Source: Oscillospiraceae bacterium | Lineage (GTDB): Bacteria; Bacillota; Clostridia; Oscillospirales; Acutalibacteraceae | Assembly (NCBI GenBank): GCA_015066465.1 | Contig: SVOI01000018.1 | Span: forward strand, 1-39,676 | Reading direction: 5' to 3' | DNA: 39,676 nt | Shown here: in pieces, positions 31,184 through 39,676 of the stretch | Position numbering within the stretch: position 1 is the stretch's first letter | Layout: each line of letters begins with the position of its first letter | Made by a program: the position numbers and the translations under genes | Notes under the pieces: generated by a model | Told to the model about the DNA's origin: nothing | The model's input: only the letters and a program-made list of their open reading frames with translations | Databases searched by the model: none

Positions 31184-33004
31184 TTGAAAAGCAGAGAAGA
31201 TATAAGAAACGTCGCAATTATTGCCCACGTTGACCACGGTAAAACAACACTTGTTGACCAGCTTTTACACCAGAGTGGTATTTTCCGTTCAAATGAACAG
31301 GTTGACGAGCGTGTTATGGACTCAAACGACTTAGAAAAAGAACGTGGAATTACAATTCTTTCAAAAAATACTGGTATTCATTACAAAGATGTAAAAATCA
31401 ATATTGTTGATACCCCAGGCCACGCCGATTTCGGTGGCGAGGTTGAGCGTATTATGATGATGGTTGACGGCGTTCTTTTGCTTGTTGATGCATTTGAAGG
31501 TTGTATGCCACAAACTCGTTTCGTTCTCAAAAAAGCACTTGCTTTAGGTAAAAAAGCAATTGTTGTTATTAATAAAATTGACCGCCCTGGTGCAAGACCA
31601 AGCGAGGTTATTGACGAGGTTTTAGATTTATTTATAGATTTAGGTGCAAACGAAGAGCAGATTGAATTCCCAGTAGTTTACGCTTCAGGTAGAGATGGTT
31701 ATTCTTCGCTTGACCCAGAAGCAAGAGAGGGCGATATGAGACCTCTTCTTGATGCAATTCTCACGCATATCGATGCACCTCAGGGTGACGTTGACGGTCC
31801 TTTACAGATTCTCTTCTCAAGCCTCGATTATGACGATTATCTTGGTAGAATTGGTGTCGGTAGAGTTGAGCGTGGTAGTGTAAAAGCAGGGCAGACAGTT
31901 TCTCTTTGTAAGCAGGATGGCACTCACCAGAACGTAAAGGTAGTTAAGCTTTATCAGTTCGACGGACTCAAAAGGGTAGAGGTTGAAAGTGCAAAAATGG
32001 GTGACCTTATTGCAGTTTCTGGTATCAGTGAACTCAATATTGGCGAAACTGCATGTGACGTTGAGCACCTTGACCCACTCCCATTCGTTAAAATTGATGA
32101 ACCAACAATTTCAATGAACTTTATGGTTAACGACAGCCCATTTGCAGGTAAAGAGGGTAAGTTCGTTACTTCAAGAAATATTCGTGCAAGACTCTTTAAA
32201 GAAGTTGAAACAAACGTTAGTATGAGAGTTGAAGAAACTGAAAGCACAGACTCTTTCAAGGTTTCAGGTCGTGGCGAATTGCATTTATCAATTCTTATTG
32301 AAACAATGCGCCGTCAGGGTTATGAATTTCAGGTTTCTCGTCCACAGGTTATTTATAAAAAGGATGAAGCTGGCAACGTTTTAGAGCCAATGGAATTACT
32401 TATTGTAGAAGTTCCAGAAAGCTACGTTGGTGCAGTTATGGAAAAAATCGGTTCACGTAAGGGTGAACTCGAAAATATGGATGTTCGTGATGGCGGTTCA
32501 ACTCATATTGAATTTAAAATCCCAGCTCGTGGACTTATCGGCTATCGTTCAGAGTTTATGACCGATACAAATGGTAACGGTATTATGAATAACCTTTTCT
32601 TAGGTTATGAGCCTTATAAGGGCGATATTCAGATGCGTGAACGTGGTTCTATCGTTGTTCACGAAACTGGTGAAAGTACAGGTTATGGTCTTTTCAATAC
32701 ACAAGACCGTGGACGTCTTTTCATTGGCCCTGGTGTTCCAGTTTATGAAGGTATGATTGTCGGCGAATGTGCAAAGAATGAAGATATTGTTTGTAACGTT
32801 TGTAAGAAAAAGCAAATGACAAACACACGTGCTTCGGGTAGTGACGATGCACTCCGTTTAGTGCCTCACACAACATTGAGCCTTGAGCAATCAATGGAAT
32901 TTATAGGTGATGACGAATTAGTAGAAATCACACCTGAAAGCATCCGTTTAAGAAAGAAAATTCTTTCAAAAGAAATGAGAATGAAACAACAGTTTAAGAA
33001 ATAA
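31184..33004 (+). CDS. typA: Ribosome-associated GTPase TypA/BipA
   Basis: A 606-residue translational GTPase linked to ribosome assembly and stress or cold adaptation. The G motifs are G1 [11 protein letters not shown]2 ERGITI, G3 [10 protein letters not shown] and G4 NKIDRPGA. After beta-barrel and EF-G-like domains comes the TypA-specific C-terminal domain ([40 protein letters not shown]). The start is TTG behind AAGGTGAAGG. It is complete and closely follows asnA. Cell-wall genes are next downstream, 27 bp away. Confidence 0.97.
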
Positions 33005-34573: not shown

Positions 34574-35689
34574 TTGAAAATATTAGTTTTAAAAATATTT
34601 ATCTTAGCAATGAATATAGCTTACTTACCATTCAAGCTTTTAAAAACAAAAAAGCGAGTGGTAATGATGAGTCGTCAATCAAATGAAATAAATGACGATT
34701 TTCGTTTACTTGGTGCCGAGTTAGAGAAAAAGGGCTATGAGGTAAAATATCTTTGCAGGACTCTTGATGGTGGCGTTAACTCAACACTTTTTACTAAAAT
34801 CGGTTACGGATTTCATATGTTTACTCAGATGTATTATTTAGCAACCTCTGAGATTTGTGTTTTAGATACATATTGCCTTGTTGTCAGCATTTTAAATCAT
34901 AAAAAAAGCCTTAAGGTTGCTCAGATATGGCACTCAATAGGCACTTTAAAACAGTTCGGTTGGCAAATTTTAGAACGTGCAGAAGGCAGTAATCCTGAGA
35001 TTGCAAAAACTATGAAAATGCACGAGAATTACGACGTTGTTTACTGCGCTGGTGAAGCGTACAAGGAAGTTTTAGCAGAAGGCTTCAATATGTCACCCTC
35101 AAAATTTCACGTGTGTACTTTACCAAGAATAGATTTACTTTTTGACGAAAAATATCAGAATGATATTAAAGAAAAAATATATAAAAAATATCCCGTTTTA
35201 AAAGAAAAAACAAACGTAGTTTATGCACCTACCTTCAGAAAAGACGAAAGCGAATTTCAAAAGTATTTTAATGAGCTTGTTAACGAATTTGATTTTGATA
35301 AATACAATCTCATTGTTAAGCTTCATCCACTTTCAAAAGTAACAGTGAATGATAGTCGTGTGGTTTATGATACTGATTTTTCAACTTTCCAGATGATTTC
35401 TGTTGCGGATAAGTTTATAAGTGACTATTCCTGTGTTGTTTATGAAGCAGGGGTAAAAAATATTCCACTTTATTTTTATAATTACGATATGGAAACCTAT
35501 GAAGATGTCAGAAGTCTTACAATAAACTACAATGACTTACCAGGCTTTAAAGAACAAACGGCAAAAGGACTTGTAGAAAGTCTCGAAAAGCCTTATGATT
35601 ATGATTATCTTAAAAGCTACATAAATAAATATATAGAAAATACAGCCGATTGTGCAAAGAAAATGGCTGAAGATATAATAAAAAAATAA
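34574..35689 (+). CDS. CDP-glycerol glycerophosphotransferase family protein (TagB-like), short form
   Basis: A 371-residue relative of the gene before, without its N-terminal domain. An N-terminal hydrophobic, basic segment binds the membrane. The catalytic motifs are KVAQIWHSIGTLKQFGWQ, YAPTFRKDE, LIVKLHPLSK and FISDYSCVVYEAGVKNIPLYF. It may add the first glycerol phosphate (priming), with the long form extending the chain, or the reverse; sequence alone cannot say. Translation starts at TTG behind AAGGTGAT. A terminator follows directly, then the array of cassettes on the other strand. Confidence 0.88.
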   Translation: MKILVLKIFILAMNIAYLPFKLLKTKKRVVMMSRQSNEINDDFRLLGAELEKKGYEVKYLCRTLDGGVNSTLFTKIGYGFHMFTQMYYLATSEICVLDTYCLVVSILNHKKSLKVAQIWHSIGTLKQFGWQILERAEGSNPEIAKTMKMHENYDVVYCAGEAYKEVLAEGFNMSPSKFHVCTLPRIDLLFDEKYQNDIKEKIYKKYPVLKEKTNVVYAPTFRKDESEFQKYFNELVNEFDFDKYNLIVKLHPLSKVTVNDSRVVYDTDFSTFQMISVADKFISDYSCVVYEAGVKNIPLYFYNYDMETYEDVRSLTINYNDLPGFKEQTAKGLVESLEKPYDYDYLKSYINKYIENTADCAKKMAEDIIKK

Positions 35690-35690
35690 T

Positions 35691-35720
35691 AAAAGGCAAT
35701 CCAAAACGAGATTGCCTTTT
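35691..35720. terminator. Bidirectional intrinsic terminator at the core/array boundary
   Basis: AAAAGGCAATC / GATTGCCTTTT with an 8-nt loop, T-rich on both sides. It ends the teichoic-type gene pair on the plus strand and the first tRNA-like cassette on the minus strand. Confidence 0.9.
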
Positions 35721-35725
35721 TTCTT

Positions 35726-35803
35726 TGGAGCTGGAAACGTGACTCGAACACGCGACCTGGGGTTGTAATTAAGGAAATGTTTTAATTGTTGAGCTATCAT
35801 CGC
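35726..35803 (-). repeat. tRNA-like sequence A (degenerate, near full length, ends in CCA)
   Basis: Read leftwards it is 78 nt: a 7-nt start GCGATGA, a D-arm-like TAGCTCAA, CCTTAATTACAAC in the anticodon region, AGGTC, a paired T arm (GCGTG-TTCGAGT-CACGT), TTCCAGC, an unpaired T and an encoded CCA. The 3' end resembles tRNA-Thr (acceptor CCAGC, then T, then CCA). The acceptor stem pairs at only four positions (one of them G-U), and the D and anticodon stems do not form, so it is not a working tRNA. It starts 9 nt after the stop of the 133-residue gene. Confidence 0.65.
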
Positions 35804-35812
35804 AGTTTTATC

Positions 35813-36214
35813 TCAAAAGCATTGATACATTGCTGCCACGGTAATAACAGGCGAAACAACTGATAAAATTAAATTAATAAAGAATATGCCACTTATTTTT
35901 TTGCTTTTTACTGCACCGATAATTTGAGCTATTACAGAAACCAAGAGATATGGTAAATAAGTAAACCAAATCATAACATCAAAAAAGAGTAGGATTTCCT
36001 CAAAAAAAACGCTTAATGCAAAACTATCTATATACAAAATATTTCCCCAAATCCAAAACGCCAAGTTTGAAATAAAATAGAAAAGATTTATTGCCAAAGT
36101 AATATAAGCGTGGATTCCGTATCCGTTTAGTTTACCGTCTTCGTCTTTTAGACCACTTAGCCAACCAAAATCGGTTTTGTTCTTCTTAGATTCTATATAT
36201 TCCGGTACAGCCAT
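35813..36214 (-). CDS. Small integral membrane protein, cassette 1
   Basis: A 133-residue protein with three or four membrane segments (about 35-58, 63-80, 80-100, 107-130), such as AYITLAINLFYFISNLAFWI and MIWFTYLPYLLVSVIAQIIG. A soluble N terminus of about 30 residues carries SKKNKTDFGWLSGLKDEDGK. The family is unknown. The start follows AAGGAG at a 10-base distance. It has its own promoter (36253-36281) and is followed by tRNA-like sequence A, so it forms a complete transcription unit. Its strand is opposite to the core genes on its left. Confidence 0.6.
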   Translation of the reverse strand: MAVPEYIESKKNKTDFGWLSGLKDEDGKLNGYGIHAYITLAINLFYFISNLAFWIWGNILYIDSFALSVFFEEILLFFDVMIWFTYLPYLLVSVIAQIIGAVKSKKISGIFFINLILSVVSPVITVAAMYQCF

Positions 36215-36252
36215 ATAACATAATCTCCTTTTCTAAATATTATACTACAAAG

Positions 36253-36281
36253 ATTATATCAACAATTATGTAGTAAATCAA
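36253..36281 (-). promoter_or_regulatory. Promoter of cassette 1
   Basis: Minus strand: TTGATT (36281-36276), 17 bp, TATAAT (36258-36253), about 38 bp before the start. Confidence 0.7.
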
Positions 36282-36318
36282 GGAAGCTGAATTAAAATCA
36301 CGGCTTGCTGTGTATATC

Positions 36319-36435
36319 GTTTAAAGAATAAATAATAAAGAATAACACAAAAGCGGTGGTAGGCACAACTCTTTATTATTTCTTGTTTTTTCTCTATTCT
36401 TTATTCTTTTAGGCGAGTTTATCTCGCCGCTTTTG
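36319..36435. repeat. AT-rich inverted repeats between cassettes 1 and 2
   Basis: This 328-bp gap (36215-36542) holds no gene. It contains AAAGAATAAATAATAAAGAA (about 36323-36342) facing TATTCTTTATTCTTT (about 36395-36409), an outer pair CAAAAGCGG (36348-36356) / CCGCTTTTG (36427-36435), and a GGCGAG / CTCGCC hairpin just left of tRNA-like sequence B. One of these may end the cassette 2 transcript. Confidence 0.5.
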
Positions 36436-36490
36436 GAGCTGGAAACGTGACTCAAACACGCGACCTATTGTTGTATTTAAGGGTGCTTTT
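36434..36490 (-). repeat. tRNA-like 3' half B
   Basis: Leftwards: CCTTAAATACAAC, AATAGGTC, a T arm GCGTG-TTTGAGT-CACGT, TTCCAGC, T, CCA. Its last 32 nt differ from copy A at one T-loop base. Only a CCTCAA trace of a D arm remains upstream. It lies about 60 nt after the stop of the cassette 2 gene. Confidence 0.65.
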
Positions 36491-36542
36491 TGAGGTAAGA
36501 AAACTAAGTGCGGATTCGTTTTCATTTTTTGGAGTGAATATT

Positions 36543-37913
36543 TTACCACTCCTCTGAAATTTGTTTATACGAAATTTTATCATTGATAGCAATGATTTCA
36601 ATATCATAAAAATAATTTTCAGAATCAGGATTATAACCAAACAAGAAATCATAAAAATTAACTTCAAGAGGGTAACAGCACTGTAATATGATTTTATAAG
36701 TGTTTATTTTTTTATCGCCTTCATATTTTTCATCTTCAAATATAACGGCGTCTGTGTTCCTGATAAATTCTAAAGTAGAGTCAGAGTTATCGCCTTTGTT
36801 TATATCGTCAAACCATTTTCTGGTCTGTTCTCCATGTTCATAATTCAAATAATAACAATCTATGCCGCAACCATCTGCATTAGGAATAAAGAGTTTATAA
36901 TTGATTTTACCATTGGAATCGTATGAAATAATTATACAACTGATAATATCATCCCAACTATCCGGGTCTTCCATTCCATTAGTGTAACAATATATTGCAT
37001 ATTGGCTTGTAAATGTATTTTCAGGATTCTTTGTAGTTAAGTAATCATCTACATAGCACGGGAATAAGCAGTCCCAGATATAGTCTTCGTAATTTTTCTT
37101 TTGCTTTACAAACCCTTTTTCTACTAGTTCTTTTTCTGTTAAACTTGTATCGTCTCCGATTTTAATGTCGGCATACACATTCCTTTGTTCTGATGTGATT
37201 TCTGAAAGATAATATTCCTGCGGTGTTTCTGTATAATATTCATCATTAAAATATTCATATTCATATTTTGCAAAAGCAAATCCGTAAATAACAAGAAACC
37301 CTGTAAAAACAACAGAAAGAATTGCTGCAATTTTAACTAATGACAAACGATATTTTTTTGTCGTACATTTTTTTACATATGCACGGAACACAAAACAAGT
37401 GTAAGCAATGAGAAAAACAAGATTTGCTATATAGGGAATTATGCCACTTAAAGTATTTTCGTGTTCAGGACTATTTATTAAGAAATTAAATACAAGAGTA
37501 GCGGCATTGAATAAAGGGAAAAATAAACCGCTTGTAATAAAAGAGCCAAGGATAATTAATACTAATGCAGATGTTATAGCAAGCAATTGCTTTTTTAAAT
37601 TGTACCTACAGCACATTATCGTGTAAACAGTAAAAAATATAAATCCAACAAGGTAAAAAGCTAACTCAACAATGCTGGGATAAACGGGTGTTAAAGGCTC
37701 TACAAAATACCAATAACCCAAACTCAAATCAAATACAGACACTATGTTTATTGTGCACAATGCAATAAATATTACCCCCGCCATGATGATACTGTCTTTA
37801 CAAATCACATTGTTCCATATTGTTTTACAAACGTCATTAAAAGATGTTTTACTATTTTCTACAATCTCTAAGTTAGTAGAGTCGTTAAAATTATTGTTAT
37901 CCGAATTACACAT
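36543..37913 (-). CDS. Polytopic membrane protein with large C-terminal domain, cassette 2
   Basis: A 456-residue protein. A polar N terminus (about 30 residues, Asn-rich) precedes five predicted transmembrane segments between about 40 and 220 (for example IVELAFYLVGFIFFTVYTIM, AITSALVLIILGSFITSGLF and KIAAILSVVFTGFLVIYGFA). A soluble, probably external, C-terminal domain of about 230 residues is rich in Tyr, Asp and Glu, with a few cysteines. The family is unknown. The ATG at 37913 is preceded by AAAGGAG, which favours it over the upstream GTG at 37931. A leader hairpin (37935-37972) and a TATAAT further upstream suggest its own promoter. tRNA-like half B follows. Confidence 0.6.
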   Translation of the reverse strand: MCNSDNNNFNDSTNLEIVENSKTSFNDVCKTIWNNVICKDSIIMAGVIFIALCTINIVSVFDLSLGYWYFVEPLTPVYPSIVELAFYLVGFIFFTVYTIMCCRYNLKKQLLAITSALVLIILGSFITSGLFFPLFNAATLVFNFLINSPEHENTLSGIIPYIANLVFLIAYTCFVFRAYVKKCTTKKYRLSLVKIAAILSVVFTGFLVIYGFAFAKYEYEYFNDEYYTETPQEYYLSEITSEQRNVYADIKIGDDTSLTEKELVEKGFVKQKKNYEDYIWDCLFPCYVDDYLTTKNPENTFTSQYAIYCYTNGMEDPDSWDDIISCIIISYDSNGKINYKLFIPNADGCGIDCYYLNYEHGEQTRKWFDDINKGDNSDSTLEFIRNTDAVIFEDEKYEGDKKINTYKIILQCCYPLEVNFYDFLFGYNPDSENYFYDIEIIAINDKISYKQISEEW

Positions 37914-37934
37914 GGTGTTATCTCCTTTCACCGA

Positions 37935-37972
37935 ATGGGTTTATAATTAATATTCAAATATTCATAACCCAT
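37935..37972. repeat. Hairpin in the leader of cassette 2
   Basis: ATGGGTTTATAATTAATATT facing AATATTCATAACCCAT, an imperfect stem just upstream of the ribosome site of the 456-residue gene. It could influence translation or be a remnant repeat. A TATAAT on the minus strand lies just beyond it (about 37980). Confidence 0.5.
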
Positions 37973-38055
37973 CTGTTAATTATACTATAGCAAGGAAATA
38001 TTAAAAATTGTGTGATATGTAATTTTTGGACCGTTTTTTGTAATATTTGGGCTAA

Positions 38056-38243
38056 AAAATAAAGACCACAGTTTCCTATAGTCTCTTTGGAGCTTGTGAC
38101 GGGATTCGATGGGCTTTGCCCATCATTCGCTACGCGAACACCCGATTGTGTTCGGCTTCGCCGAGAGGTTCGAATCCCTGTGTTATTATTCAATTTAGTT
38201 TCTCCAAAAAATAAAGACTACAGTTTCCTGTAGTCTTTGGAGC
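38056..38243. repeat. ~186-bp direct repeat, copy 1 (terminator, interrupted tRNA end D, terminator)
   Basis: Nearly identical to 39491-39676, with about four base differences. It contains AAAGACCACAG-type terminators at both ends (38060-38088 and 38213-38238) and, between them, a leftward tRNA 3' end (TGGAGCTTGTGACGGGATTCGA, in two blocks, from 38088) that is broken in the T loop. The break is filled by 60 bp of small hairpins (GGGCTTTGCCC, TTCGCTACGCGAA, CCGA..TCGG, CGGCTTCGCCG), after which TCGAATCCC (38170-38178) mirrors GGGATTCGA (38101-38109). Confidence 0.8.
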
Positions 38244-38290
38244 TTGTGACGGGATTCGAACCTGCGACCTGACGTTGTAGTTAAGGATAA
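38238..38290 (-). repeat. tRNA-like 3' half C
   Basis: Leftwards: CCTTAACTACAAC, GTCAGGTC, T arm GCAGG-TTCGAAT-CCCGT (one mismatch), CACAAGC, T, CCA. The anticodon-region word CCTTAAnTACAAC is shared with A and B; the acceptor strand differs. It is followed at once by an intrinsic terminator on the minus strand (AAAGACTACAG hairpin, then ATTTTTT) and lies 32 nt after the DUF4241-like gene. Confidence 0.65.
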
Positions 38291-38322
38291 GTTTTTTCTG
38301 TTTATAGACACTTTGTCATTTT

Positions 38323-39390
38323 TCAGCAACCAAATATTTCAGGGTTGACCATTGGTATTATTATTTCACATATCTCATCATTACAATCGTAACCATAATA
38401 ACTATTATAAAAGCCATCGCCCAATCCCGAAGCAATCATAACAAATTTATTTCCTGTTTCAGGATTAGCCCATTCGATAAAGTCTCCACCTTCTCTTTGG
38501 TAAGCAGGTGTTTTCTGATAACTTTCCTCAAAATATTTTGCAAAATAATCATCGTAATGGTTTTTATCAGGATTTTCGGAATACCATTTATCGAGAAAAG
38601 TCCTGTATTCATTTGCTATTTGGGCATCACAAAAACAAATCATTCCGGCATCCACAGGGAAACCTTCAAGAACATCCCCGTTTTTAAGTTCTACAACAGT
38701 TTCTTTTGTTGCTCTAGTTTTTTTATAAACAACAACCTTTGAGTCTTTTATTTTTAGTTTTGCAGTACACATACGAACACCAATTTCCTCTTGTCTGCAT
38801 ACAGAAACTTCAACAGAATATGTACCACTCGGAACAGATTCTGCAAGAAGAGGACAAAACTTTGAACTTGGGAGATACGCTAAAGGATCAGCCACAACAA
38901 TTTTTCCTGTTGGACAATCAATTTGTCCAACATTCAGATAAAAGCGATTCTCATTTTTAATAAATTGAGTTTCAATATCTTCAACGGGTATTTCATCTTG
39001 TGTTCTGAAAGTTGTATTCTTCTTTATTTTTGTTTGCAAATCGTCCTGTTTATTTGATTTTTCTATTTCAGTTGCTTTATTCATCCAATATGCGCGTATT
39101 TTCTCAACAATTTCGATTGATTCCTCAAGAGCGTTTTTATCATTGTATTTATTAAAATTACTAAAAATATGACCGCAATGTTCAAGAGAATCATTTTCAT
39201 AACCACCACAAACTCCAAGTTTCCATTCACCCAACATTTTTTCTTTAAAGCGAAAAATATAATAATGTAAATTATGAAGATCAAATTCTTTTGTACAATC
39301 TATTTGAAAAGGCTTTTTACCTAATTCATTAGGATGAGACAACCACGCTGTCATAGCATTCTGGGCTGCATTAAGTTGTTCTTTATTCAT
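38323..39390 (-). CDS. DUF4241-like protein with N-terminal extension, cassette 3
   Basis: A 355-residue soluble protein. The C-terminal two-thirds fit DUF4241: VADPLAYL, VPSGTYSVEVSVCRQEEIGV, VDAGMICFCD, then GGDFIEW, KFVMIASGLGDGFYNSYYGYD and IIIPMVNPEI. The N-terminal part (1-95, KEQLNAAQNAMTAWLSHPNE...) is a separate domain with GVCGGYEND. DUF4241 proteins often occur near polymorphic-toxin immunity genes; the biochemical role is not known to me. I chose the ATG at 39390, behind GGTGGAGG, over a longer reading from 39459, which overlaps the -35 box. tRNA-like half C follows. Confidence 0.75.
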   Translation of the reverse strand: MNKEQLNAAQNAMTAWLSHPNELGKKPFQIDCTKEFDLHNLHYYIFRFKEKMLGEWKLGVCGGYENDSLEHCGHIFSNFNKYNDKNALEESIEIVEKIRAYWMNKATEIEKSNKQDDLQTKIKKNTTFRTQDEIPVEDIETQFIKNENRFYLNVGQIDCPTGKIVVADPLAYLPSSKFCPLLAESVPSGTYSVEVSVCRQEEIGVRMCTAKLKIKDSKVVVYKKTRATKETVVELKNGDVLEGFPVDAGMICFCDAQIANEYRTFLDKWYSENPDKNHYDDYFAKYFEESYQKTPAYQREGGDFIEWANPETGNKFVMIASGLGDGFYNSYYGYDCNDEICEIIIPMVNPEIFGC

Positions 39391-39430
39391 AACTACCTCC
39401 ACCAAATTATCCACGTTTATATTTTTCTTT

Positions 39431-39459
39431 AATATATCATGTTCTTTTGAATTTTTCAA
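39431..39459 (-). promoter_or_regulatory. Promoter of cassette 3
   Basis: Minus strand: TTGAAA (39459-39454), 17 bp, TATATT (39436-39431), about 40 bp before the start. Confidence 0.6.
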
Positions 39460-39490
39460 CTAATAGGTTTATTTTAGTTTTGTTCTCTGA

Positions 39491-39676
39491 AAAATAAAGA
39501 CCACAGTTTCCTGTAGTCTTTGGAGCTTGTGACGGGATTCGATGGGCTCTGCCCATCATTCGCTACGCGAACACCCGATTGTGTTCGGCTTCGCCGAGAG
39601 GTTCGAATCCCTGTGTTATTATTCAATTTAGTTTCTCCAAAAAATAAAGACTACAGTTTCCTGTAGTCTTTGGAGC
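39491..39676. repeat. ~186-bp direct repeat, copy 2 (interrupted tRNA end E), running off the window
   Basis: Copy of 38056-38243: terminator (39496-39521), leftward tRNA 3' end from 39521 broken after GGGATTCGA (39534-39542), the same palindromic insert, TCGAATCCC (39603-39611), a second terminator (39646-39671), and the first bases TGGAGC of a further tRNA-like end at 39671-39676. The array therefore continues to the right. Confidence 0.8.

Follow-up and report, generated by a model that had tools for sequence, protein, structure and literature searches.

The locus described here has its closest described relatives among elements that insert into RNA genes. In tRNA-dependent lysogeny, known from tyrosine-integrase phages of Actinobacteria, a tRNA gene is split and a spare is brought along (Guerrero-Bustamante and Hatfull 2024, PMC10865867). 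The ssrA islands of Dehalococcoides, which involve a serine recombinase, stand in tandem and each end in a copy of the 3′ end of the target RNA gene, with a conserved 15-bp motif beside each repeat; 15 of these islands have no integration module (PMC3146451). Integrative and mobilizable elements of the Tn4451 type are described as disrupting dispensable genes, and in the table rows covered the tRNA targets are those of tyrosine enzymes (PMC5704250); serine integration at tRNA genes has been called rare (PMC3218068). These and later statements on the cited papers go as far as the excerpts of them do. Here, we have analysed a contig of an Oscillospiraceae bacterium (SVOI01000018.1, 39,676 nucleotides (nt); hereafter the window) in which three unrelated genes are each followed by a tRNA-Thr 3′ half. 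We argue that these halves, A, B and C, are very probably attR scars of elements that split a tRNA-Thr gene by means of a large serine recombinase (LSR).

Probable scars in the window

The window is the whole of contig C62 of genome G000 (2.53 Mb, 80.6% complete, 92 contigs). An earlier note on this DNA had reported three tRNA-like copies on the minus strand, each past the stop of a different leftward gene, and a fourth at the right edge. The features in question are:

35726–35774, minus strand: scar A, attR-like; arm CCTTAATTACAAC, then CCC, AGGTC and the tRNA-Thr 3′ half to CCA, of the TTTCCAGC type
36434–36482, minus strand: scar B, attR-like; CCTTAAATACAAC, then AAT, AGGTC and the tRNA-Thr 3′ half to CCA, of the TTTCCAGC type
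38238–38286, minus strand: scar C, attR-like; CCTTAACTACAAC, then GTC, AGGTC and the tRNA-Thr 3′ half to CCA, of the CACAAGC type
39671–39676, minus strand: first 6 nt of a tRNA 3′ end, GCTCCA, at the contig edge

All three scars read CCTTAAnTACAAC-NNN-AGGTCGC, followed by a T arm, the 3′ strand of the acceptor and CCA. With 3 mismatches allowed, this motif has 3 matches in the window, which are A, B and C only, and 0 in 100 shuffled sequences, so that the copies and the motif shared up to AGGTCGC were correctly described. The motif follows the stop codon by 38 nt in A, 60 nt in B and 36 nt in C, and T-arm pairing is preserved in A and B. Copy A had been taken as nearly full length; instead, like B and C, it comprises the 3′ half alone, AGGTC to CCA, preceded by the same motif, and ARAGORN gives no tRNA match for it. 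That no full cloverleaf forms is borne out by ARAGORN (0 genes) and Rfam (0 matches at the gathering score) in the window, and by the lack of any tRNA match at E ≤ 5 in 35600–39676. As to the fourth copy, a tRNA 3′ end does start at 39671, but only six bases of it precede the contig end. Comparison by eye suggests that these bases may belong either to a head tRNA-Thr(CGT) as in genomes G018 and G021, in which case the contig would end at the head tRNA, or to a further scar.

Terminator-like sites in the window are above chance (7, against 1.7 in shuffles, standard deviation (sd) 1.7). Such hairpins follow the CCA of scar A (35720–35691, minus strand) and of scar C (38238–38213, minus strand), and the scan showed none after the CCA of scar B. 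The clear promoters that had been assigned to the first and third cassettes are not confirmed: promoter-like sites in the window are not above chance (20, against 19.3 in shuffles, sd 4.9), although extended −10 matches (10 of 12) lie upstream of genes 1 and 3.

Whole elements in other genera

The repeated part of the scars reaches past the tRNA into a motif that is an inverted arm in whole elements. Genome G319, of the same family and another genus, has two halves 8.9 kb apart and a whole element beyond the second. In this element, the host tRNA 5′ half and a reversed arm are followed, after some 40 nt, by a complete tRNA-Thr(CGT) that differs in sequence, then by the cargo and by an arm joined to the host tRNA 3′ half; the cargo comprises a GHKL kinase, a LytTR regulator, two ABC proteins, the LSR, an IrrE-type protein and DUF4411. 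The elements of G319 (11.1 kb), G787 (9.1 kb) and G474 (12.1 kb) each have an LSR, attL, attR and a complete tRNA-Thr(CGT) beside attL. The LSR consists of Resolvase (PF00239), Recombinase (PF07508), zinc ribbon (PF13408) and DUF4368 domains, which were located between attL and attR by Pfam in G319 and G474 and by 98% identity in G787.

When the flanks of these elements were joined in silico, a canonical tRNA resulted in all three two-ended cases, namely tRNA-Thr(CGT) in G319 and G787 and tRNA-Ala(CGC) in G474. The common core of attP and attB is AGG or AGGTC, with no whole 3′ half, and the attP arms are unlike tRNA. The attL of G319, G787 and G474, and also of G001 and G011 from the window's genus, is an arm and not a tRNA half. 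Among the proteins scanned (9 of G319 and 4 of G474), the only recombinase is the LSR. Inverted arms on both sides of a short core, an attB whose likeness to attP is limited to AGG(TC) and an internal LSR fit serine integration with a central dinucleotide, which by symmetry is probably GT.

A search of 395 relatives with the LSR of G319 returned 7 genomes at E ≤ 1e-140, G319 included; identity to it is 98% in G787, 97% in G790, 75% in G474, 61% in G221, 49% in G233 and 47% in G097. In G221, from another family, the tRNA-Thr(CGT) 5′ half breaks off after AGGTC, and a diverged arm and a complete replacement tRNA-Thr(CGT) are present; no attR was found there. In G233 and G097, where the LSR is <50% identical, a search of 20 kb with 1 mismatch allowed returned no arm site. 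The carried tRNA has the isotype of the split one in G319, G787, G221, G001 and G011 but not in G474, and none was seen in G790. Since G474 (C12, 17461–29526) splits tRNA-Ala(CGC) yet carries tRNA-Thr(CGT), its element suggests recognition of an anticodon-arm region common to several tRNAs, not of one tRNA. It also contains MobC and a relaxase, and a relaxase lies near the LSR of G221; relaxase or mobilisation genes are absent from the 9 G319 proteins and the 3 window cargo genes.

The LSR of G319 is 38% identical to proteins annotated as TndX. It has 0 matches in viral contigs, and its matches in 641 phage and 340 plasmid records are all <60% identical. A viral origin was rejected: in viral contigs the arm followed by AGGTCGC, the attL pattern and a palindromic attP all gave 0 hits, and of the 16 stretches that fitted a looser pattern, none went on into a tRNA.

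Arrays and recombinase traces in the window's genus

The pattern TTAANTACAACNNNAGGTCGC, with 1 mismatch allowed, matches 10 of the 22 genus genomes, among them that of the window, and none of the 126 other genomes searched; read backwards, it matches 2 of 148. In named genome records, a longer pattern matched 13 stretches. All belong to metagenome assemblies whose titles read Clostridia, Oscillospiraceae or Eubacterium, and the RGIG assemblies among them come from gut samples of sheep, goat, water deer and roe deer. Ten of the 13 are contigs already matched in the genus genomes, and L096, L099 and L103 are additional; the site is present in assemblies of at least three naming series (RGIG, SIG, SRR8387719). 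Order-wide, 3 of 394 genomes matched (the window's own included), and family-wide 5 of 398 (G000, G006, G013, G319 and G689). An order-wide match in G432 was set aside as chance, its sequence not continuing as a tRNA.

In 7 of the 10 genus genomes with halves (G002, G005, G006, G007, G008, G018 and G021), an intact tRNA-Thr(CGT), here called the head, shares contig and strand with the halves and marks one end of the array; L099 has one as well. G013 has a tRNA-Thr(CGT) close to the end of another contig, and no intact copy was found for G015 or the window's genome. In the latter, tRNA-Thr(GGT) and tRNA-Thr(TGT) are present among the 30 of 37 tRNA matches examined, and a search with the CGT gene matched nothing but the partial copies of C62 and, weakly, another tRNA. 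The his operon adjoins the head in G002, G005, G006, G007, G008 and G013, and not in G018. A typA homologue lies beyond the halves on the same contig, opposite the head and often with other genes intervening, in G005, G007, G008, G013, G015, G018 and the window; in G013, G015 and the window, where the head is absent from the typA contig, this side was deduced from the strand.

The acceptor strands pair in 9 of the 9 heads typed. Scar types are mixed: C differs from A and B in the window, and the scars of G008 differ from one another or from the head. Some halves are degenerate (the second of G007 and the third of G008). Behind the head, runs of short hairpins that vary by genome separate the tRNA terminator from the recombinase tail or cargo in G002, G005, G007, G008 and L099, while the tail is conserved. 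Because the terminator behind one scar (G006:C70, third half) is similar to the terminators of heads in other species (G007, G008), terminators behind scars may record former heads and the order of insertion.

C-terminal remnants of an LSR, 22–45 residues long and 63–77% identical to that of G319, are found in the arrays of G002, G005, G007, G008 and G013, in the block behind the head and, in G013, behind a half as well. A peptide from the remnant block is 77.5% identical to the LSR of G319 and at most 51% identical to the genus LSRs compared, the comparison covering the LSR of G319 and 15 LSRs of the genus (a 16th locus, L190, is a non-recombinase open reading frame). G689, from another genus, also has an LSR remnant on the contig that bears its half.

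In G001 and G011, a tRNA 5′ half cut after AGGTC is accompanied by the exact reverse complement of the G007/G008 arm and by a substitute tRNA-Thr(CGT). Among the loci examined, these two genomes are the only ones in the genus with reversed arms (attL), and the window has none. Behind the split tRNA-Thr(CGT) and its substitute, G011 carries an island (C27, 14786–22953; L134, L174) with phosphopantetheinyl transferase, AMP-binding and condensation/reductase domain genes.

In the 26 distinct attR-like sites compared, the 11 arm positions have a mean of 1.96 bits against 0.41 in the flank, a conservation that is partly built in because the sites were chosen by the arm pattern under a strict filter. 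Eighteen sites come from the genus and L099, 6 from G319, G787, G790, G474 and G689, and 2 from L096 and L103; armless or degenerate halves (the first of G006, the third of G008 and the T-loop ends) were left out.

Movement of units between genomes

Ten cassette pairs, hand-chosen from matches of cassette genes, were compared by nucleotide identity:

G006 and G008: cassette 96.2%, hisD 80.1%
Window and G018: cassette 98.8%, typA 90.2%
G002 and G005: cassette 95.3%, hisD 80.4%
G007 and G013: cassette 97.1%, typA 86.2%
G008 and G015: cassette 93.9%, typA 79.4%
G005 and G015: cassette 95.4%, typA 80.8%
G002 and G008: cassette 80.5%, hisD 82.5%
Window and G008: cassette 71.2%, typA 80.7%
G002 and G015: cassette 97.2%, no core gene for comparison
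Window and G006: cassette 79.4%, no core gene for comparison

Cassette identity is far above that of the core gene in 6 of the 8 pairs with a core gene (94–99% against 79–90%). Units recur across species in different combinations, and the one with a 1680-aa gene takes position 1 in the array of G006 and position 3 in that of G008. As judged from these comparisons of sequence, our results show lateral spread of cargo genes among arrays. They also support the stepwise accretion at a tRNA gene that the earlier note had proposed, given the recurrence of units in new combinations, the pairs above the core gene and the arrays with intact heads.

The units measure about 0.7–8 kb and hold one or few genes. 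The right-hand limit of the common sequence is the arm or the tRNA half: G008 and G015 are the same through CATAGGT, and G002 and G005 through CCA, before they diverge. Left ends are less regular: that of G006/G008 lies after the terminator, that of G002/G005 at the recombinase tail. Single-gene units may still be moving.

Cargo genes and neighbourhood of the window

The other features of the window are as follows:

31184–33004, plus strand: typA/bipA, by Pfam
35813–36214, minus strand: cargo gene 1, 133 amino acids (aa), no Pfam or NCBIfam family at E ≤ 1
36543–37931, minus strand: cargo gene 2, 462 aa, no Pfam or NCBIfam family at E ≤ 1
38323–39459, minus strand: cargo gene 3, 378 aa as listed, DUF4241 (PF14025)
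38088–38109, minus strand: tRNA-Thr 3′ end, cut in the T loop and joined to a run of small palindromes
39521–39542, minus strand: second tRNA 3′ end cut in the T loop, with palindromes

Two glycerophosphotransferase genes separate typA from scar A. Cargo gene 2 has homologues in the arrays of G006 (73% aa identity), G008 (59%) and G005 (56%). Cargo gene 3, the sole one of the three with a Pfam family, probably starts at the ATG at 39390; it is 98% identical in aa sequence to a cassette gene of G018 located between the head and a half. The T-loop-cut ends belong to a 160-nt block of small palindromes fused to a tRNA 3′ end, found at 38084–38243 and 39517–39676 in copies that are 99% identical. 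The same arrangement occurs in G018 and G021, and a similar-looking one in L096.

PADLOC, run on 10 cargo proteins including the three of the window, found nothing in 7, among them the window genes; it matched AbiH at E 2.2e-4 in G007, and regulator and candidate (PDC) models in one protein each of G006 and G013. A ribonuclease-family (barnase-like) and barstar pair forms one unit in G007 (C4, 14874–15830) and G013 (C30, 16043–16933), with 97% nucleotide identity across the two species.

Discussion

In the mechanism that we propose for scars A, B and C, attP would consist of two inverted arms, CCTTAnnTACAACC, around a short core, and the LSR would recombine it with AGG(TC) of the tRNA-Thr(CGT) gene, at about positions 44–48 of the tRNA, in the variable loop. 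The tRNA gene would thereby be split, with its 5′ half and one arm forming attL and the other arm and its 3′ half forming attR. Since the element would bring a whole tRNA-Thr(CGT) just inside attL, as an intact new target, each insertion would renew the target. The next element would then enter the new tRNA, and older cargo and older 3′ halves would be pushed away from the head. Later decay of the LSR and loss of attL with the tRNA 5′ half would leave an intact head tRNA, cargo genes and attR scars. Catalysis would be due to an LSR of the G319 type. As to the route by which the head tRNA becomes intact again, we lean slightly towards a deletion between repeated tRNA 5′ halves that took attL out.

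Several observations weigh against this mechanism. Neither an LSR nor a remnant of one is present in the window (best tblastn E 0.018). The earlier note, which saw no integrase, missed the enzyme, remnants of which lie in the arrays of five genus genomes and which is whole in other genera. In the 22 genus genomes, 8 of which have an LSR match, no match at E ≤ 1e-40 is above 39% identity to the LSR of G319. Several remnants start at almost the same codon, a pattern that a single old deletion derivative explains better than decay on repeated occasions would. None of the ten half-bearing genus genomes has attL, so that the loss of attL itself is not seen. G790 has the LSR and attR but no tRNA or attL within 30 kb, and the G474 element, which targets tRNA-Ala(CGC) while carrying tRNA-Thr(CGT), does not replace its target. 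The attL of G319 reads AGGCC where attB has AGGTC; we would read the GC as a later change. In two pairs (G002/G008 and window/G008), the cassette is no closer than the core gene, and homologous recombination between arrays could also move units. The built-in part of the arm conservation counts on the same side.

It is possible, although we consider it doubtful, that the scars come from circular single-gene units, made up of an arm, AGGTC and a tRNA 3′ half, which recombine with an intact tRNA as attB and restore it, the same serine recombinase acting in trans in the manner of an integron. The intact heads without attL on 7 array contigs of the genus and in L099 agree with such a half swap, as do the size and gene content of the units, the arm or tRNA half at which their common sequence stops, and the head-like terminator of the third half of G006; the Dehalococcoides ssrA islands, which in the excerpt keep the end of their target, offer a precedent (PMC3146451). 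On the other hand, the attL side is arm-like and not a tRNA half in the three two-ended elements and in G001, G011 and G221, and the mixed acceptor types of the window (C against A and B) and of G008 would need mismatched head tRNAs in between. Because the acceptor strands of the heads match while the scar types differ, replacement of the whole tRNA fits better than a half swap. Rather improbable in our view is that recombinase-free units, each with one arm and a tRNA 3′ half, were captured in trans at tRNA-Thr(CGT), with the tRNA kept working, and stacked as an integron-like cargo pool of gut Clostridia that includes barnase/barstar and AbiH-type genes.

The main reading of the earlier note, islands of a tyrosine integrase that recombines at a tRNA 3′ end and rebuilds it, with the integrase since lost, is very unlikely, even though the tRNA target, the repeated 3′ halves and the intact head would suit it and a PF00589 match at E ≤ 1e-6 occurs somewhere in 21 of 22 genus genomes. 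The note had suggested looking for a tyrosine recombinase at the array end, but neither C62 nor any other array contig has a PF00589 match at E ≤ 1e-6, and G002 has none at all. The whole elements hold only the LSR among the proteins scanned, and there the tRNA is split at AGG(TC), not rebuilt, between attP arms unlike tRNA and with a further tRNA carried. Still less credible is the suggestion that the halves act on mRNAs as tRNA-like 3′ ends, recognised by RNase P/Z or CCA enzymes or protecting the 3′ end. In the window the scars do lie on the strand of the upstream gene, shortly after its stop, with T-arm pairing in A and B; yet no cloverleaf or Rfam match is found, some halves are degenerate, some genes between scars in G006, G007 and G008 run in the opposite direction, and the repeated part contains the recombination arm. 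An artefact of assembly or chance, which fragmented metagenome assemblies and a contig ending in a repeat might bring to mind, has practically no weight and is refuted because other genomes carry the site, which is found in at least three assembly series and in 10 of 22 against 0 of 126 genomes, with 0 matches in shuffles.

If the LSR mechanism is true, the splitting of a tRNA combined with a spare, known from tyrosine-integrase phages, would also be used by serine-recombinase elements of another phylum, and one tRNA gene would serve as a self-renewing landing site at which cargo builds up. As its att sites are short and well defined, this LSR clade would lend itself to tests as a tool for integration at a tRNA. 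The order in which elements were inserted may be legible from the scars, and perhaps also from the terminators that follow them.

Comparison with known systems

Integrons hold ordered cassettes, the newest next to a fixed site. The arrays look similar, but the enzyme class differs, with no tyrosine recombinase on the array contigs. The attC core, R′/R″, is GTTRRRY; on the plus strand, the sites of the window read GTTGTAA (A), GTTGTAT (B) and GTTGTAG (C) and do not match it. A cis-mobilizable element (CIME) keeps attL and attR without a recombinase, whereas attL is found within the genus only in G001 and G011 and not in the window. In tycheposons and tyrosine-type tRNA islands, attP carries the tRNA 3′ half and rebuilds the tRNA, which is not so here, where attL is an arm.

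Serine recombinases at tRNA genes are known from Mycobacterium actinomycete integrative and conjugative elements (AICEs) at tRNA-Leu (PMC3218068) and a Paracoccus phage at tRNA-Met (PMC6536676); hosts and element types differ, and the excerpts of these papers describe no tRNA replacement or scar arrays. The additive flexible islands with repeated tRNA-Lys 3′ ends are alike in having variable genes beside a tRNA and repeats of its 3′ end, but are found in Methylophilaceae and have 20-bp repeats, and the excerpt describes no element arm or serine recombinase (PMC10872708). The integrative and mobilizable elements of the Tn4451 type resemble ours in their LSR, very short end repeats and insertion in a gene (PMC5704250), and G474 adds MobC and a relaxase to this likeness.

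Among open-licence papers, we found tyrosine cases, the ssrA islands and a few serine integrations at tRNA genes, and none with the present combination. The Dehalococcoides islands share with our arrays the serine recombinase and the tandem 3′ ends of the target; they differ in that the target is the transfer-messenger RNA, cut in the T loop with a 20-bp repeat and, in the excerpt, with no target replacement described (PMC3146451), whereas here tRNA-Thr or tRNA-Ala is cut at AGG(TC). Closest in logic is tRNA-dependent lysogeny, with its split tRNA gene and spare (PMC10865867). Unlike those phages, the elements described here are 9–12 kb long, use an LSR, occur in Clostridia and are associated with arrays of scars, and one of them has mobilisation genes and sits in a tRNA-Ala gene while carrying tRNA-Thr.

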